DNA from: Petrachloros mirabilis ULC683 | GTDB lineage: Bacteria; Cyanobacteriota; Cyanobacteriia; Thermosynechococcales; Thermosynechococcaceae | Assembly: GCF_009939295.1 (NCBI RefSeq) | Contig: NZ_WVIC01000021.1 | Location: 1-64,000, forward strand | Reading direction: 5' to 3' | Length of the DNA stretch: 64,000 nt | Part shown: positions 1 through 57,194 of the stretch, in pieces | Layout of the letters: every line of letters starts with the position of its first letter | Position numbering within the stretch: position 1 is the first letter of the stretch | Program-made: the position numbers and the translations under genes | The notes under the pieces: model-generated | Seen by the model: the letters and a program-made list of their open reading frames with translations, nothing else | The model's database searches: none | What the model was told of the DNA's origin: nothing

Positions 1-83
1 AAGTAAAAAACAAAGGAAATGCTATTAATGTAGTTTAGATGCACAACAGCTTATGCTAACCTAAACCTTTACAAGATAAGGTT
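1..83 (+). promoter_or_regulatory. Candidate CRISPR leader
   Basis: This stretch lies before the first CRISPR repeat and is AT-rich, with no open frame. If the array is transcribed on the plus strand, as the repeat 3' end GGAAAC suggests, this is where the leader would be. It begins at the window edge, so its full extent and any cas genes upstream cannot be seen. Leader identity is inferred from position only. Confidence 0.35.
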
Positions 84-845
84 GTTTGGGCTTCTTCGGA
101 AGTCGAATTAATGGAAACTTCTCCCCAAGCTCGGGGTCCGCCAGGTTGACCTGGAGGGTTTGGGCTTCTTCGGAAGTCGAATTAATGGAAACCCTCCTTC
201 TCCTTTTTAGGAGTAAATTACATTTGTAGTTTGGGCTTCTTCGGAAGTCGAATTAATGGAAACAAAAACACGCATCTTTTTTCTCCATTTATTAAAGTGT
301 TTGGGCTTCTTCGGAAGTAGAATTAATGGAAACTAATTAATGTTTTCACTTCTATTTTTTGTATTCCAGGTTTGGGCTTCTTCGGAAGTCGAATTAATGG
401 AAACAAAATCTTCAAATATCTCCTGGAGTCGCTGATTAAGTTTGGGCTTCTTCGGAAGTAGAATTAATGGAAACTGAATACCCGGAATGCCTAGTTCACT
501 GTTGTCATCAGTTTGGGCTTCTTCGGAAGTCGAATTAATGGAAACTTTCCCTTTGCATCACCCCATGCAAATAGACCTAAGTTTGGGCTTCTTCGGAAGT
601 CGAATTAATGGAAACCTCCGGTGTTGGCGGAACCGAGTTCTCACGGACTCAGAGCATGTTTGAAAAGTCTCATCAACCCTGCATTAGCCCCCCCGACCCC
701 CCAAATTTGGGGGGAGAAAGGCGAAAATTCTGATCTGATTCCCCCCAGAATTGGGGGGCTAGGGGGGCGAGTGCAATATCTAAGCACCTTTTCAAACACT
801 CTCTCAGAGAGTTTGGGCTTCTTCGGAAGTCGAATTAATGGAAAC
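84..845 (+). CRISPR. CRISPR array, 9 repeats and 8 spacers
   Basis: Nine copies of a 35-bp repeat start at 84, 158, 229, 299, 370, 440, 511, 581 and 811. Each begins GTTTGGGC and ends TTAATGGAAAC. Copies 4 and 6 carry AGTAG where the others have AGTCG; otherwise they appear identical. Spacers are 35-39 nt, except the last (616-810, 195 nt), which holds an inserted element. The repeat folds as CTTC-TTCG-GAAG, a four-pair stem closed on a cUUCGg tetraloop and extendable by one G-U and one G-C pair. The GGAAAC 3' end resembles the crRNA handle of type I/III systems, but no cas gene is present in the window, so the type cannot be assigned. Confidence 0.97.
652..803. repeat. Miniature inverted-repeat element inside CRISPR spacer 8
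   Basis: About 152 bp with imperfect terminal inverted repeats (left GAGCATGTTTGAAAAG, right complement GAGAGTGTTTGAAAAG) and a core of C-run/G-run palindromes. C-TCA-G stands on both sides (648-652 and 803-807), as expected for a TNA duplication. Removing 155 bp leaves a spacer of 40 nt, close to the other spacers. The same type recurs near 970, 17407, 34679 and 57043. It has no coding capacity, so it must have been moved by a transposase encoded elsewhere. IS5-type ends are suggested by the GAG terminus and TNA duplication, which is an inference. Confidence 0.85.
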
Positions 846-850
846 ACATC

Positions 851-878
851 GGTGCCAGACGGCACCCCTTCAATTTTT
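851..878 (+). terminator. Possible terminator after the CRISPR array
   Basis: GGTGCC (851-856), loop AGAC and GGCACC (861-866) form a perfect 6-bp hairpin five bases after the last repeat, with a run of five T at 874-878. The gap between stem and T-run is longer than in a standard intrinsic terminator, so this is only a candidate. Confidence 0.35.
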
Positions 879-967
879 ACGAGTATCAACTTAGGGCGGC
901 ACATCTTGTCCCGTATGGATTTTAGCTTTCGTCCGACAAAGTGAGCATTACAGCTATTTTGGATAGG

Positions 968-1110
968 TTAGGGGTGGTTTGAAAAGTTTCTAACGCCTTG
1001 CACTTGCCCCATAAATCCCCCATTCTGGGGGACTTTGAGAATTCTTTAGCCCCCCAGAATGGGGGGTTGGGGGGCGAGTGTAGAGCATGGCAAAGCCCTT
1101 TAACGCAGCC
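968..1110. repeat. Degraded copy of the GAG-type miniature element
   Basis: The left end GGTTTGAAAAG and the core (GCACTTGCCCC, CCCCCATTCTGGGGG, CCCCCCAGAATGGGGGG) match the element that splits spacer 8. The right end is degenerate. The rest of the 359-bp gap between the array and the next gene (846-1204) shows nothing else recognisable. Confidence 0.65.
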
Positions 1111-1204
1111 TCTACCCGTATCAAACTGTCTCGCCCAACGCTGCATCCTGGTAATTAAACAGATTGCTAAAATTGGAGGTAGACTCGGTTGAGGTGAATG
1201 TTCT

Positions 1205-1882
1205 ATGGTTTTGAATCAATCTGCTCGTTCGCTGCCTGTTCCGGCTTTAGCCAGTGGCGATCGCCTCACTCGGGCTGAGTTTGAGCGCCGCTATAAGGCA
1301 ACTCCAGAAAAATTCAAAGCCGAGCTAATCGAAGGAGTGGTTTACGTGGCATCCCCGGTTAGAGCATTTCACGGCACACCCCATGCTGCCTTGGTTGGTT
1401 GGTTGACTGTTTATTGGGCAGCAACGCCCGGTGTGAATGTTGCCGACAATACAACCACACGGCTAGACTTGGACAACGAGCCTCAACCCGATGCTCTGCT
1501 GCGGATTGAAACGGGCGGCACGTCTACAATCAGCGAAGATGGCTACATTGAGGGAACACCCGAACTGATTGCCGAAATTGCCACCAGCAGCGCCGCCCTT
1601 GACCTTGGTGAGAAAAGAAACACCTATCGGCGCAACGGAGTACAAGAATATCTGGTGTGGCAAACCTTTGAGAATCAGTTCAGTTGGTTCCGGTTGCAGG
1701 CGGAAGAATTTGTGCCGATCCAGCCGGATGCTGAAGGCATAATTCGCAGCAGCACCTTTCCGGGGTTGTGGCTGGCGGTGACAGCATTGTTAGAAGGCAG
1801 AATGATTGACGTGTTGAATACGCTGCAAACGGGGCTAGCTTCTCCCGAACATCAAGCTTTTGTGCAAAAACTGGCTGAGTAG
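1205..1882 (+). CDS. Uma2 family endonuclease-like protein
   Basis: A 225-residue protein with the Uma2 (DUF820, PD-(D/E)XK fold) layout. It has an N-terminal LTRAEFERRY segment, the ELIEGVVYV strand, PD at 95-96, then LIAEIA (E124) and K138 before a Tyr, followed by VQEYLVW. Family proteins are predicted nucleases that are expanded in cyanobacteria, and their biological role is unsettled. The start ATG has GAGGTG upstream. It is one of four Uma2 genes in the window and is clearly more diverged than those at 2857 and 61161. Confidence 0.85.
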   Translation: MVLNQSARSLPVPALASGDRLTRAEFERRYKATPEKFKAELIEGVVYVASPVRAFHGTPHAALVGWLTVYWAATPGVNVADNTTTRLDLDNEPQPDALLRIETGGTSTISEDGYIEGTPELIAEIATSSAALDLGEKRNTYRRNGVQEYLVWQTFENQFSWFRLQAEEFVPIQPDAEGIIRSSTFPGLWLAVTALLEGRMIDVLNTLQTGLASPEHQAFVQKLAE

Positions 1883-1933
1883 CAACTGTGCTTCGCATGC
1901 AGGCATGGCGGTGAGGGGGAATTAGGTGCTGTC

Positions 1934-1954
1934 ACTCAGGTGAGAACCGCTATA
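1934..1954 (-). repeat. Solo end of the TATAGCGGTT repeat
   Basis: These 21 bases are the exact complement of the left end of the 108-bp repeats at 61029 and 62464 (TATAGCGGTTCTCACCTGAG and one more base). The rest of the repeat is absent, so this is a truncated relic. It sits four bases from the 3' end of the vapC gene. Confidence 0.7.
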
Positions 1955-1957
1955 CTG

Positions 1958-2338
1958 CTAACGAATGAGTTGAATAGGAAGACTTGGATAGGCAGTAGCC
2001 CAAATGTGATCGCCCGTAAGAATCGGCACATTTAGGTCTATTCCGAGGGCAATACAGGCACGATCACCTAAAGACAAGCCGTGGGCACGGCTCTCTGGCC
2101 ACAGTCGCGCAGTTTGTTCAGCAGATTCCGCATCAAATACTCGAATTGAGAGACCCAATGCCTCTAAATCATCTCGACAGCCATCAATCTTGGCTCCGCG
2201 TCTAATCAACTGCTGTAACACCTCAGCCCAATTTACCCCAGATATCACCGCTTTAGAAAGCACCTGATCAACCTGCTCTTGTCCTGGCTCATCCAGCAAA
2301 AACGCTAGCAAAGCCGATGCATCTAATACCGCAGTCAT
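1958..2338 (-). CDS. vapC: PIN-domain toxin, VapC type
   Basis: A 126-residue PIN-domain protein with the expected acidic quartet visible at D6, E39, D92 and D110 (contexts AVLDAS, NWAEV, LSLGDRA, ILTGDH). VapC toxins are ribonucleases that cut tRNA or rRNA and are neutralised by a cognate antitoxin. The start codon overlaps the 3' end of the AbrB-type gene by four bases, the usual translationally coupled arrangement. Its length fits the family and nothing suggests inactivation. Confidence 0.9.
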   Translation of the reverse strand: MTAVLDASALLAFLLDEPGQEQVDQVLSKAVISGVNWAEVLQQLIRRGAKIDGCRDDLEALGLSIRVFDAESAEQTARLWPESRAHGLSLGDRACIALGIDLNVPILTGDHIWATAYPSLPIQLIR

Positions 2339-2589
2339 ACCGCCTCCTCAGCCGCCGCCACTCGCCGCTCGGCAATCAAATCATCCACGACACCCTGCCC
2401 CTTCAGGTGGGCAAACCGCTGCTTCAGTCGCTGCTTAATATTTTCAGTCTTTTCCAGCACCAGTCGTCCCTCTTCAATCCGAGCCACCACGCGATCTCCC
2501 TGATGTAGCTCCAACTGATGTCGCAACTCAGCCGGAATGACCACGCGACCGCTCGCTCCAATTTGAACCTCTACCGCTGCATTTGCCAT
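2335..2589 (-). CDS. vapB: AbrB/SpoVT-type antitoxin, VapB
   Basis: An 84-residue protein with an N-terminal swapped-hairpin AbrB domain (IGASGRVVIPAELR, GDRVVARIEEGRLVL) followed by a charged C-terminal helix that would bind the toxin. It lies upstream of and overlaps vapC in the order normal for such operons. Proteins of this type usually repress their own promoter. No operator could be recognised, although the upstream region has several AT-rich TTTGTCA-like words. Confidence 0.88.
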   Translation of the reverse strand: MANAAVEVQIGASGRVVIPAELRHQLELHQGDRVVARIEEGRLVLEKTENIKQRLKQRFAHLKGQGVVDDLIAERRVAAAEEAV

Positions 2590-2639
2590 AAATTTGTCAA
2601 ATCTGTCATAAATTCTTCAATTATGTCGCATAATACAAA

Positions 2640-2850
2640 GCTGCGACATAAAATATTTAGCTTGTCATAGGCCACAAGTACACCAACCCCACAGGCTCCA
2701 CCCCATAGACTTTGATCTGATGGGTCTCCTCAATTCGCGCTGGTTCTGTTCAACCAACGATATGTATGGCCATTGCCCAGAGCCACATGAAAGGCGTGAC
2801 CCAGACTGGTCGGCCGCTCACAGACCATCGCCCAGACCTCCCGTGATATA
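2640..2850 (-). other. Possible decayed coding relic
   Basis: No intact frame is present. Read on the minus strand, the stretch encodes protein-like pieces such as REVWAMVCERPTSLGHAF and, in another frame, IKVYGVEPVGLVYLWP. This looks like a gene fragment broken by frameshifts, but the family is not recognised. Confidence 0.25.
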
Positions 2851-2856
2851 GGATCG

Positions 2857-3483
2857 CTACTGACCAGCACTCAACACTTGTTCAGCAGGCAGTTGCAAGC
2901 CTGAGAAAGTTTCAGAAACAATAGTCTGGTTGCCTCGAAACTGCTGAATTGCATATTCTGTATCTACTAGCGTACAGATAGAGAGAGTGGGTTGCTTGGG
3001 CTTGCCAATGTGTCGAGTACCACCTAACCCTGCGTAGTCTGCAATCCAATACTCACAGATGCCCAACACCGCGTAATCTTCGAGCTTACGAGCATAATCA
3101 TTTTGCCAGTTGCCACTCACAACTTCCGCCACAAATTTAATCGAAGTGCCTAGGGTCAAAATTGACTGATCATTCCAAAGCGGCTCTTTGATCAGCTCGC
3201 CTTGATCAACAACTACGATATCAGGACGAAATGCCGTCATGCCAGTGTTAGAAGGGCGCAACAGTCCCCGCTGAAGAACAAACCAAGGTAAACCTGTTCC
3301 GTCAATCTGGACACAGAGCTTTGTCGTTATGAAGGCGGCAACTTCTTCATGCAAGCCTGTTGGTTCCAAATCAAACACCTCACCGTCGATCAGTTCGTAG
3401 CGGTTATCACCACCATAATCAGCGAGAAACTCGTCAAAGCTAAGCGGCTTCTGTTGAATTGCTTGATCGACTGCAATAGCCAT
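2857..3483 (-). CDS. Uma2 family endonuclease-like protein
   Basis: A 208-residue Uma2 protein. Visible features are LSFDEFLADYGGDNRYELIDG at the N-terminus (E of YELIDGE), a PD pair in AFRPDIVVVD, the EVVSGNWQNDYARKL helix (E and K of the nuclease core), CEYWIADY, and a GLGGTRHIGKPKQPTLS tail. It is closely related to the gene at 61161, sharing the IGKPKQPT block, and less so to that at 1205. A catalytic fold is expected from the family; substrate and role are unknown. Confidence 0.87.
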   Translation of the reverse strand: MAIAVDQAIQQKPLSFDEFLADYGGDNRYELIDGEVFDLEPTGLHEEVAAFITTKLCVQIDGTGLPWFVLQRGLLRPSNTGMTAFRPDIVVVDQGELIKEPLWNDQSILTLGTSIKFVAEVVSGNWQNDYARKLEDYAVLGICEYWIADYAGLGGTRHIGKPKQPTLSICTLVDTEYAIQQFRGNQTIVSETFSGLQLPAEQVLSAGQ

Positions 3484-24232: not shown

Positions 24233-25486
24233 ATGTTTCACATGTCTTTTCGCTACCGCATCTATCCAGACTTTGAGCAAGAACAGCAAATGCTAAACTG
24301 ACTCGAAACCTGTCGCAAGATTTATAACTATGCACTGCGGGAGCGCAAAGATTGGATCAATAGCCGCAAATGCCAGATTGACAGGTGCTCTTTGCAATCG
24401 GAATACATCATTCCGGCAGATGCGCCCTACCCAAACTACTACGCTCAGAAGAAAGCGTTGACCGCAGCCAAGACTGATTTCCCGCTGATTAAGGCGGTTC
24501 ACTCTCAGGTCTTGCAAAACGTGATTGCGAAGGTAGATAGTGCATTTGCGTTCATGAAAGAAAGAGGATTTGGATTCTCACGCTTCAAAAAGTTTGGGCA
24601 GTTCAAAACTTTGCACTTTCCCCAACTGCAAGCCGACCCCATTCGGGGCACTCAAATTAAAACTCCCAAGGTCGGGTTGATGCCCATTGTGTTGCATCGT
24701 CCCATCCCAGAAGGATTTGAGATTAAGAGTTTGCGGATGGTGTGCAAGCATTCTGGTTGGTATGTCACCCTTTGTCTTCAGGCTGATGTTTCTATTCCCG
24801 ATGTGCCGCCTCATGGTCATGCCATTGGGATTGATGTGGGGCTGAGTTATTTTCTGTCTACCAGTGATGGCGAACAGATTGCTAGACCGCGTTTCTTTGA
24901 CAAGCTGCACCGCAAGCTGGAGTTGCTGCAACGTTGTTTGAAACGGAAACAAAAGCGGTCTAACACTCGATCTAAGCTGATTCAGAAAATAGGTAGGGTT
25001 CATGAACAAATTGCTGCTTGTCGATTGGATTGGCAGTTCAAGCTTGCGCATCATCTTTGCGACCGGGCTGGGATGATTTTTGTCGAGGATTTGGACTTCC
25101 GAATCATGGCAAAAGGCATGTTGGGCAAGCACACCCTTGATGCTGGCTTGGGTCAATTTGTGAACCAAGTGTTGCCATGGGTTTGTTTCAAGCGCGGTGT
25201 TTACTACGGCAAGATTGACCCGAAGGGCACGTCTCAAACTTGCCCTGACTGTGGAGCCAGGGTGAAGAAAGATTGGAGTGTGCGGATTCATGAGTGTCAT
25301 GAGTGTGGGTCTATCAAGCCGAGAGATGTTGCAGCAGGTCAGGTAATATGCGCCCGTGGTCTTTCGGGTGTTGAATCTAGTAGGGGTACATTCCCCGCCC
25401 CTTGGGGCGAAGTCTTAGAATTGCAATGCGGGGCAACGCACCGCGAGCAAATCAGTTTCGATACCCCGCTGCTAGCGGCGGGGTAG
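24233..25486 (+). pseudogene. tnpB: TnpB (IS200/IS605-type) with one nonsense codon
   Basis: From ATG 24233 one frame reads MFHMSFRYRIYPDFEQ and so on, broken only by TGA at codon 23 (24299-24301), where the intact copy suggests Trp or a similar residue. After it the RuvC-like core is complete: GIDVGLSYF (Asp), FVEDLDFRIMAKGM (Glu), a zinc finger CPDC/CHEC, and KPRDVAAGQV (last Asp). TnpB is an RNA-guided nuclease related to the ancestor of Cas12. No TnpA is adjacent. It is a paralogue of the intact gene at 46054. Confidence 0.88.
25464..25483 (+). other. Hairpin at the tnpB 3' end
   Basis: CCCCGC (25464-25469) pairs with GCGGGG (25478-25483) across an 8-base loop, just before the TAG stop. 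IS200/IS605-type elements carry hairpins at their right ends, and TnpB guide RNA overlaps the gene 3' end, so this may be part of the element boundary or of its guide RNA. Guide RNA identity is inferred. Confidence 0.5.
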
Positions 25487-33523: not shown

Positions 33524-34679
33524 AACCAAGTCCCCCCTTGATGGTTTGCGAGCCTGCTATTTGGGACTTTTACTGGGGGGCGTAGCAGCTTGTGGCAAAA
33601 CACCTCCTCTTGTCAATCCAACAGACTTTGGGTTAGACAGAGCTGTTATGTTGACCGACGTAACCCTGCAACAGACTGATGAACAGGGGCGCTTGTATTG
33701 GCAACTGCATGCTCAAGAGCTACGCCACTCAAAAGCCGGGCATCAGGCTGAGGCAACACAAATTACGGGGACACTCTACGAAAAAGGAAAATCAGTCTTT
33801 CAGATTGCAGCCGATCAGGGAAAGGTGCAACAGGCCGCTCAGTCCATCACCCTGTGGGGAAACCTTACCGTTACGGCTGATGAGATGGTCATGCAGGGGC
33901 AAGAGTTGGAGTGGCAGCCTCAAAAAGGACAGATGGTGATGCGCGGTGGCTTCACACTCAGACATCCTCAGGTGCAATTGTGGGCCGAGACCCTACAAGT
34001 TTCTCGACCCCATGATCAAATCCAGGCTCAGGGTAATGTGATCCTTGAAGATGCTCAAGCTCAAGTGCGGCTCAAAACAGAGCAGATCACTTGGTCTTGG
34101 CAGCACCAACAAATCCAGGCCGGGCACAGTCAACCTGGACAAACCCAGCCTCAAGTTGAAATTGAGCAATTGCAAGGAAAGGTAACTATTGCCCATGCCC
34201 TAGCAGGGTCAGTGGAGCTAGCGTTGCCGTCTTCTCGGTTGACACTTCAAGACCCGGCCCAGATTTCCTGGAAACAGCCGCCGTTGCAGATCGCCAGCCG
34301 ACAATTGATTTGGCAGATTCAGCCCTTTCTGGTCAGCAGTCATGAGAGAGTGTCCGTAAAAGACCCAGATCGTCATCTCACCTTGGTTGCTGGGGGGGGA
34401 CATCTCGATCACCGTCGCCAGGTGGTGTCCTTATTCAAAGGGGTGGAAGTCTGGGGATGGCAATCTGGGCAGGAGCCGCTATTGACGCATCCTCCTCACC
34501 TGACCAGCAACCACCTCACCTGGCACCTTGACCCAGATGTTGTCACAGCCTCAGGTAACGTCAGCTATCGCCAAGATTCCCCGGCTCTGATGCTGCGCGG
34601 CGTCAAGGCCATCGGCTCCCTGCAAAAACAAACCATCCACATGATCGGCGGAGAGACTGTCATTGAGATTGCGCCTTAG
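33498..34679 (+). CDS. lptC: LptC-like lipoprotein
   Basis: A protein of up to 393 residues with a lipobox-like GGVAACGK near residue 32, followed by repeated beta-strand units of the LptC/OstA jelly-roll type (LYWQLHAQELRHS, GTLYEKGKSVFQ, QGNVILEDAQ). It should help carry lipopolysaccharide across the periplasm. The start is uncertain: the frame opens at TTG 33498 inside the NYN gene, and TTG 33537 is possible. Its stop TAG lies in CTTAG, where a miniature element begins. Confidence 0.82.
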   Translation: MIPPSLPNRTKSPLDGLRACYLGLLLGGVAACGKTPPLVNPTDFGLDRAVMLTDVTLQQTDEQGRLYWQLHAQELRHSKAGHQAEATQITGTLYEKGKSVFQIAADQGKVQQAAQSITLWGNLTVTADEMVMQGQELEWQPQKGQMVMRGGFTLRHPQVQLWAETLQVSRPHDQIQAQGNVILEDAQAQVRLKTEQITWSWQHQQIQAGHSQPGQTQPQVEIEQLQGKVTIAHALAGSVELALPSSRLTLQDPAQISWKQPPLQIASRQLIWQIQPFLVSSHERVSVKDPDRHLTLVAGGGHLDHRRQVVSLFKGVEVWGWQSGQEPLLTHPPHLTSNHLTWHLDPDVVTASGNVSYRQDSPALMLRGVKAIGSLQKQTIHMIGGETVIEIAP

Positions 34680-34831
34680 AGCTTGTTTGAGAAATTGCTT
34701 AGACCTTGCACTTGCCCCCCTAGCCCCCCAATTCTGGGGGGATAATGATCAGAGTTTTTGACTTTCTCCCCCCAAAATTGGAGGGTCGGGGGGGCTAATG
34801 CAGGGATGAATGAGGCTTTTCAAACCGCCTC
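34679..34831. repeat. GAG-type miniature element at the lptC stop
   Basis: A copy of 153 bp with C-TTA-G on both sides (34675-34679 and 34831-34835). The left target holds the lptC stop codon. The ends are GAGCTTGTTTGAGAAA and, as right complement, GAGGCGGTTTGAAAAG. Its right TTA-G is directly the left flank of the next element, so two element families abut here. Confidence 0.88.
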
Positions 34832-46053: not shown

Positions 46054-47307
46054 ATGCTAAACATGACGTGGGAATTCAAGCTAGAGCCAACCGAGGCGCA
46101 GGTTTCAGGGATTGAGGACATCCTAGATGTGTGCCGCAATGTCTGGAACTTTGCGTTGCGGGAACGAAAGGACTGGCTGGATTCCCGCAAGTCTCCGGTG
46201 AATGCGTGTTCGATTCGGCAAGAGTTTATCTTGCCAGCGGATGCATCATTTCCTAGCTATGCGCGGCAGTGCAAGTCACTGACGGCAGCCAAGGCTGATT
46301 TCCCCCGACTCAAGACCGTCAATGCCCAGGTGCTTCAGCAAGTTATTAGAAAACTGGAAGCCTCCTGGGAGTCATGGCGGTTAAAGCGTTCAGGGTTGCC
46401 CCGGTTCAAACAGCCGAGGCGAATGCGGTCGTTTGCATTCCCTCAAATGCTCAAGAACTGCGTCACCCCTGACGGAATCAAGCTGCCTCAACTGGGCTTG
46501 GTCAAGGTGCGCTGGTCTAGGGATATCCCTGATCTCTTTGAGGTCAAACAGGCCCGCATCGTTCGCAAGGCGTCAGGCTATTTCGTCATGCTGAGCCTTC
46601 AGGCTGAGGTTGATGTGCCCGCCGCAGTGCCTCATGGGCACCCGGTAGGGATTGACGTTGGGCTGGAATACTTTCTCTCAACGTCTGACGGAGAACAGGT
46701 CAAGCGACCTCGCTTTTTTGACAGGCTGCACCGCAAGCTGAAATTGCTGCAACGCAGACTGAAGACAAAGCAAAAAGGGTCGGCTAACTGGCTGAAACTT
46801 CAGCAGAAAATTGGGAGAGTTCATCAACGGATTGCCGACCATCGTAAAGACTGGCACTTCAAGCTGGCCCATCATCTCTGCGACGGCGCGGGAATGATTT
46901 TTGTGGAAGACCTGGACTTCCGCATCATGGCCAAGGGGATGCTAGGCAAGCACATGCTGGATGCTGGACTGGGTCAATTTACGAACCAAATCCTCCCCTG
47001 GGTTTGCTTCAAGCGCGATGTGTATTACGGGAAGGTTGACCCCCGTGGCACTTCTCAGGAGTGCCCTGACTGTGAGGTAGAGGTACGCAAAACCCTCTCA
47101 ACTCGTATCCATCACTGCCACAACTGCGGGTCAATCAAACCCCGGGATGTGGCAGCGGCTCAAGTCATTAATACCCGTGGGCAACGGGGAATTGAAACTG
47201 CCTGTGGAGTCGATGCGGCGGGGGCTGAGGTAACTCGGTCTAGCTGGCTGGCTTTGAAGCAGGAAATCTTTGGGGCGACCCAGGGAATCACCACCCATAT
47301 CGCCTAG
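46054..47307 (+). CDS. tnpB: TnpB (IS200/IS605-type), intact
   Basis: A 417-residue protein. It has an N-terminal wedge/helical region with ALRERKDWLDSRK, then a RuvC-like nuclease with D201 (GIDVGLEYF), E285 (FVEDLDFRIMAKGM) and D365 (KPRDVAAAQV), and a zinc finger CPDC/CHNC. All expected catalytic residues are present, so it may be an active RNA-guided nuclease. There is no TnpA in the window. It is a paralogue of the broken copy at 24233. The guide RNA would be expected near the 3' end, 47200-47400. Confidence 0.93.
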   Translation: MLNMTWEFKLEPTEAQVSGIEDILDVCRNVWNFALRERKDWLDSRKSPVNACSIRQEFILPADASFPSYARQCKSLTAAKADFPRLKTVNAQVLQQVIRKLEASWESWRLKRSGLPRFKQPRRMRSFAFPQMLKNCVTPDGIKLPQLGLVKVRWSRDIPDLFEVKQARIVRKASGYFVMLSLQAEVDVPAAVPHGHPVGIDVGLEYFLSTSDGEQVKRPRFFDRLHRKLKLLQRRLKTKQKGSANWLKLQQKIGRVHQRIADHRKDWHFKLAHHLCDGAGMIFVEDLDFRIMAKGMLGKHMLDAGLGQFTNQILPWVCFKRDVYYGKVDPRGTSQECPDCEVEVRKTLSTRIHHCHNCGSIKPRDVAAAQVINTRGQRGIETACGVDAAGAEVTRSSWLALKQEIFGATQGITTHIA

Positions 47308-57006: not shown

Positions 57007-57042
57007 GGATGGGTCTCTCGCTGAGCTGATTCTATTGTCTAA

Positions 57043-57194
57043 GAGCTTGTTTGAGAAGTTGCTTAGACCTTGCACTTGCCCCCCTAGCCCCCCATAATTG
57101 GGGGGAAATGAGCAGAGTTTTTGGCTTTCTCCTCCCAATTTTGGGGGGTTGGGGGGACTAATGCAGGGATGAATGAGGCTTTTCAGACGGCCTT
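57043..57194. repeat. GAG-type miniature element at the der stop
   Basis: A 152-bp copy with C-TAA-G on the left (57039-57043) and T-TAA-G on the right (57194-57198). The TAA stop of der on the minus strand comprises the last base of the element and the first two of the duplicated TAA. The ends are GAGCTTGTTTGAGAAG and, as right complement, AAGGCCGTCTGAAAAG. Confidence 0.82.

Follow-up and report, generated by a model that had tools for sequence, protein, structure and literature searches.

A miniature transposable element in the leader-distal spacer of a small, probably type III CRISPR array of Petrachloros mirabilis ULC683

Miniature inverted-repeat transposable elements (MITEs) within arrays of clustered regularly interspaced short palindromic repeats (CRISPR) have already been published. 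A 180-bp MITE was found in a CRISPR repeat of the cyanobacterium Microcystis aeruginosa NIES-843, among 59 CRISPRs broken by transposons (PMC4852346). The MITE HqIRS37 of Haloquadratum walsbyi HBSQ001 lies in a spacer of a short remnant array, and the ancestral spacer is recovered on its removal (PMC3119063). In Sulfolobus solfataricus, a full insertion sequence (IS), ISC1359, was found in a plasmid-matching spacer under experimental selection (PMC4390879). Here we describe a fresh instance of this known kind in Petrachloros mirabilis ULC683, where a 152-bp MITE splits the last spacer, spacer 8, of a small CRISPR array. The array lies in a stretch of 64,000 nucleotides, hereafter the window, at the start of contig 34 of a draft and very repetitive genome (4.12 Mb in 79 contigs).

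The locus shares features with each of these cases and departs from each. As in Microcystis, a cyanobacterial array carries the MITE together with a target duplication, but there the repeat was hit and 5 bp (CTATT) were duplicated, whereas here the spacer was hit with a 3-bp duplication (TCA) and the flanking repeats are intact. The likeness to H. walsbyi extends to the recovery of a spacer on removal and to a short remnant array; unlike that case, the present one is cyanobacterial, concerns the final spacer, and comes from a genome in which Cas10 and a fusion of reverse transcriptase and Cas1 (RT-Cas1) are still present. The S. solfataricus case likewise has a mobile element within a spacer, but the present element is a natural MITE and no self target was found. 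The position of the insertion may be noteworthy, since the spacer is altered at its last base alone and then continues into a hairpin.

The array (84-845, plus strand) is composed of nine 35-nt repeats and eight spacers with lengths of 39, 36, 35, 36, 35, 36, 35 and 195 nt. This measurement bears out the initial annotation, which had set a 195-nt spacer 8 against 35-39 nt for the other seven. The array reads from left to right, a direction set from leader-adjacent sister arrays on contig C57 and in Thermosynechococcaceae cyanobacterium MS004; spacer 8 is leader-distal and therefore the oldest spacer of the array. Only one variant, common to two of the nine repeats, was found in 315 nt of repeat. 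Both repeats flanking spacer 8 are perfect, and the terminal one (811-845, plus strand) matches the consensus exactly. A search of window positions 1-3000 against Rfam gave no match.

Spacer 8 (616-810) is interrupted by an element running GAGCATGTTTGAAAAG ... CTTTTCAAACACTCTC (652-803, no strand given). The element has inverted ends, GAGCATGTTTGAAAAG and GAGAGTGTTTGAAAAG, G/C-rich central stems, and inverted arms of 68 nt with 72% complementarity, and it has no gene of its own. It is flanked by two copies of TCA, at 649-651 and 804-806. The first 36 nt of the spacer (616-651, plus strand) end with the left copy, and its final 4 nt, GAGA, are found at 807-810 on the plus strand. When the flanks are joined without the element they give CTCCGGTGTTGGCGGAACCGAGTTCTCACGGACTCAGAGA, a spacer of 40 nt, as had been proposed from the letters of the DNA; spacers of the sister arrays range from 33 to 41 nt on C57 (one stretch reading N excepted) and from 34 to 43 nt in MS004. 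Both junctions carry the same 7-bp string CTCAGAG (648-654 and 803-809). The duplication proper is the 3-bp TNA rather than the 7 bp, because this is what is seen in other copies of the family.

These copies were collected by an own-genome search in which the best 40 of 300 candidates were scored, and at least 39 other genomic places match the element at E <= 2e-32. Thirty family copies were aligned together with their flanks. Twenty-nine measure 151-153 bp, and the exception, of 176 bp, carries a 24-nt insert. The left flank reads TNA in 29 copies and the right flank in every one of the 30; in 26 copies the 3-bp duplication is perfect. A C precedes the duplication in 21 copies and a G follows it in 17, giving CTNAG as the target consensus of the family, which explains the C-TCA-G noticed earlier on both sides of the element. 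The end motif (at most 1 mismatch) occurs 244 times in the genome compared with 6 times for a reversed-pattern control, from which about 120 elements are estimated, sister families counted in. Two pairs of identical copies in the family denote its recent movement. Taken together, the dispersed copies, fixed length, inverted ends and TNA duplications strongly support a MITE inserted into spacer 8, as the earlier description of a 152-bp palindromic mobile element had it. On this evidence the MITE appears to have moved into the leader-distal spacer at a CTCAG site, with duplication of TCA. More copies of the same family are found in the window at 34675-34825 and 57038-57188.

A TNA target and a 3-bp duplication characterize the IS1031 group of the IS5 family (PMC12016507). 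The MITE family shows the same target trait and also shares inverted ends starting with GA with the group. It differs in being 152 bp long and non-coding, and in that no such transposase was found in the genome. From the target site alone we infer an IS5/IS1031-like class; the element works like an IS5-type MITE, and it is not assigned as a member of the IS5 family as its autonomous partner was not found. Such a partner would carry the ends TNA/GAGNNTGTTTGA. Among 40 end-motif regions that we read, none held a gene-sized element bounded by two ends; about half had no second end, and regions with paired ends yielded no more than elements of 108-389 bp or adjacent MITE pairs. Apparent end pairs of 365 and 389 bp were considered as gene-sized elements and rejected, being MITE arrangements or nests. 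An IS5/IS1031-like transposase absent from the assembly presumably acted in trans to move the MITE, and the autonomous partner has been lost, has escaped assembly or belongs to another family. PF07592 is uninformative here, having no match in the genome and none in the control either.

The repeat points to the machinery that would serve the array. It differs at 2 of 35 nt from the repeat of a 22-repeat array with conserved leader on contig C57, which lies beside a gene for an RT-Cas1 fusion (PF00078 and PF01867; L039:2731-4701, minus strand). Cas10 is encoded on the same contig, near its end (L084:2536-4161; PADLOC Cas10b, E = 1e-199). The exact window repeat occurs 48 times in two stretches of a contig of the MS004 metagenome-assembled genome, and there too the array with window-identical repeats adjoins RT-Cas1. 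The C57 and MS004 arrays each start directly after the conserved leader. From the repeat, the window array would thus be served by RT-Cas1/Cas10 type III machinery. In its CRISPR RNAs (crRNAs), ATGGAAAC is likely the 5' tag, and the crRNA of spacer 8 would start with this tag followed by CTCCGGTGTT.

The initial annotation had concluded that the insertion inactivates spacer 8, and this does not follow. The insertion point lies after nt 36 of 40, and because the element starts with GAGC where the original spacer went on with GAGA, nt 1-39 of the guide are unchanged and only nt 40 is altered. In type III systems, where cleavage within the repeat comes before 3' trimming, mature crRNAs keep a guide of about 29-38 nt (PMC3890593, PMC3575380, PMC8376896). 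Guides of 37 and 31 nt remain in the type III-B system of P. furiosus (PMC3890593), and crRNAs of 34, 40 and 46 nt are bound by T. thermophilus Cmr (PMC8376896). The crRNA lengths of Synechocystis CRISPR1-3 are fixed although the spacers vary, and a ruler anchored at the 5' repeat, independent of the downstream repeat, was proposed by the authors (PMC3575380). Those published type III guides would all fit within the unchanged 39 nt of spacer 8. Both repeats flanking the MITE are intact, so that the repeat processing sites remain. In the model, guide nt 1-36 are equally accessible whether the MITE is present (mean unpaired 0.38) or absent (0.39). Most likely, the insertion would lengthen the precursor by a 3' hairpin; trimming would then restore a normal or near-normal guide, or the crRNA would be made less efficiently. 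A stronger proposal, which we regard as tentative and somewhat doubtful, is that the transposon-bearing spacer remains functional with a mature guide identical to the original throughout, the ruler trimming off the 3' end. If true, type III arrays would tolerate insertions at the 3' end of a spacer that type I arrays could not.

We therefore favor, with high confidence, the reading that a MITE entered the leader-distal spacer of this small, probably type III array with a probably mild effect on the guide, and that the array seems to have been cut off from its leader separately. The main rival is insertional inactivation, in which the hairpin leaves the precursor unprocessable or unloadable, spacer 8 is dead and the array is unselected. 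The hairpin anticipated from the letters alone is indeed strong (folding z = -5.25 against shuffles for the RNA of the region, where the MITE forms it by itself), no leader adjoins the array, and mobile-element material lies on either side. Inactivation through poor trimming or instability is accordingly possible but not implied, and the rival as a whole appears to us credible though not favored, in view of the unchanged guide nt 1-39, the 3' trimming of type III maturation (PMC3890593, PMC3575380) and the perfect flanking repeats. The repeats argue weakly in the same direction: if all 8 differences of the array copy from its subfamily consensus postdate the insertion, about 17 repeat changes are expected, compared with the one shared variant seen in two repeats. 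As the MITE differences may predate the insertion, this does no more than hint against long neglect.

Three other explanations carry far less weight. Selection could have favored the insertion if spacer 8 was directed against the host or against a useful plasmid, and ISC1359 of S. solfataricus, which lies in a targeting spacer, is a precedent (PMC4390879). We consider this very unlikely, because a guide so little altered would be a poor escape, nt 1-33 of spacer 8 have no other match in the own genome at 3 mismatches or fewer, and no convincing match to the spacer was found in phages, in plasmids or as exact cores in viral contigs. Searches for protospacers of the restored spacer 8 and of the cores of spacers 1 and 6 gave none or chance-level matches only. 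That the 195 nt were captured whole as one long spacer, from MITE-bearing foreign DNA or from a transcript via RT-Cas1, is scarcely credible. RT-Cas1 enzymes can capture RNA and one is encoded in the genome, but the family ends and the target site duplication are exact, the remainder is a normal 40 nt, and every other spacer has standard length; nor was the same 195-nt segment seen as a single phage-derived piece, an outcome that the initial annotation had named as speaking against an insertion. Equally hard to credit is an assembly artefact in which a misjoin via a multi-copy repeat placed the MITE in the array. The draft state and repetitiveness of the genome would allow it, but the array copy is identical to no other copy examined (the nearest being 93% alike), and flanks that give a normal spacer and one exact duplication are unexpected from a misjoin.

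Several results weigh against the insertion with mild effect that we favor. PF13340 (DUF4096) and PF13586 (DDE_Tnp_1_2) had no match in the genome while both were matched in controls, and neither of the two genomic matches to PF01609 (DDE_Tnp_1) has the ends of the MITE family. No syntenic array was found among 57 relatives, none of them of the same genus, and matches to the flank were Uma2 genes and MITEs. Identity between the array copy and its nearest relatives reaches only 93%, implying either an old insertion or an unseen source. As to the guide, the seed of the Cmr complex lies toward the 3' end of the crRNA (PMC8376896), and the strong 3' hairpin might resist the trimming of crRNA 8.

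The initial annotation had also read the insertion as a sign that strong selection on the array has ceased. The MITE by itself is no such sign: it sits in a leader-distal spacer between perfect repeats, and a hit by chance would not be surprising. The last spacer of a CRISPR array is normally the least used. About 120 elements inserting at random genome-wide would give 0.02 expected hits in this array, and if insertions are confined to non-coding DNA (assumed 17%) about 0.13 hits are expected in this array and 0.4 in both arrays. With about 120 such elements in the genome, a hit on the array is thus unremarkable. An overlong spacer with a mobile element is not to be scored as dead, nor read as a sign of array decay, before the position of the element has been checked. 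The locus also provides a natural test of the tolerance of type III arrays, as crRNA 8 would show whether 3' trimming rescues an overlong spacer.

The missing leader and the probable IS end beside the array suggest decay more convincingly than the MITE does. At the contig break, about 31 bp before repeat 1, window positions 1-53 are one end of a mobile element, probably an IS, that is present in several copies and recurs at the ends of at least four other contigs. Contigs C19, C69 and C71 end in identical blocks of 51-55 bp and C57 in one with 94% identity, with divergence after ...CAGCTTA. No conserved leader was found before repeat 1, as window positions 1-83 score like shuffled sequence against both leaders, and no other contig carries a further piece of the array. 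On the other side, the sequence abutting the array (872-1148) is 88% identical to C57:26767-27048 (L039:768-1049). From about 874 it matches the last part (3') of a Uma2 gene on C57 together with the DNA that follows, a second MITE included. The array looks like a piece cut from its original setting; another mobile element would have cut it off from its leader, independently of the MITE in spacer 8, and it probably acquires no new spacers.

The second MITE (968-1117), downstream of the array, is diverged and belongs to a sister family, with about 85-86% identity to copies at C4:25686, C39:53228 and C15:52792. Its counterpart occupies the same site in the paralogous stretch of C57. A nested arrangement was observed on contig C26 (L100:1206-1594), where a MITE-like element with ends GGCTACGGTGTACACACA lies within another MITE; the loop holds a small palindrome of the ACGCCCTGCGGGCA.. 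type, and a similar palindrome is found in the L008 copy. Judged solely by eye, the window also holds two OrfB/TnpB-like genes of IS200/IS605 type, at 24392-25486 and 46054-47307. Another type III cluster, with Cas10, Csx10, a Csx7-like RAMP protein and a TIGR02619 protein, is encoded elsewhere in the genome (L085; C11:1-12394).
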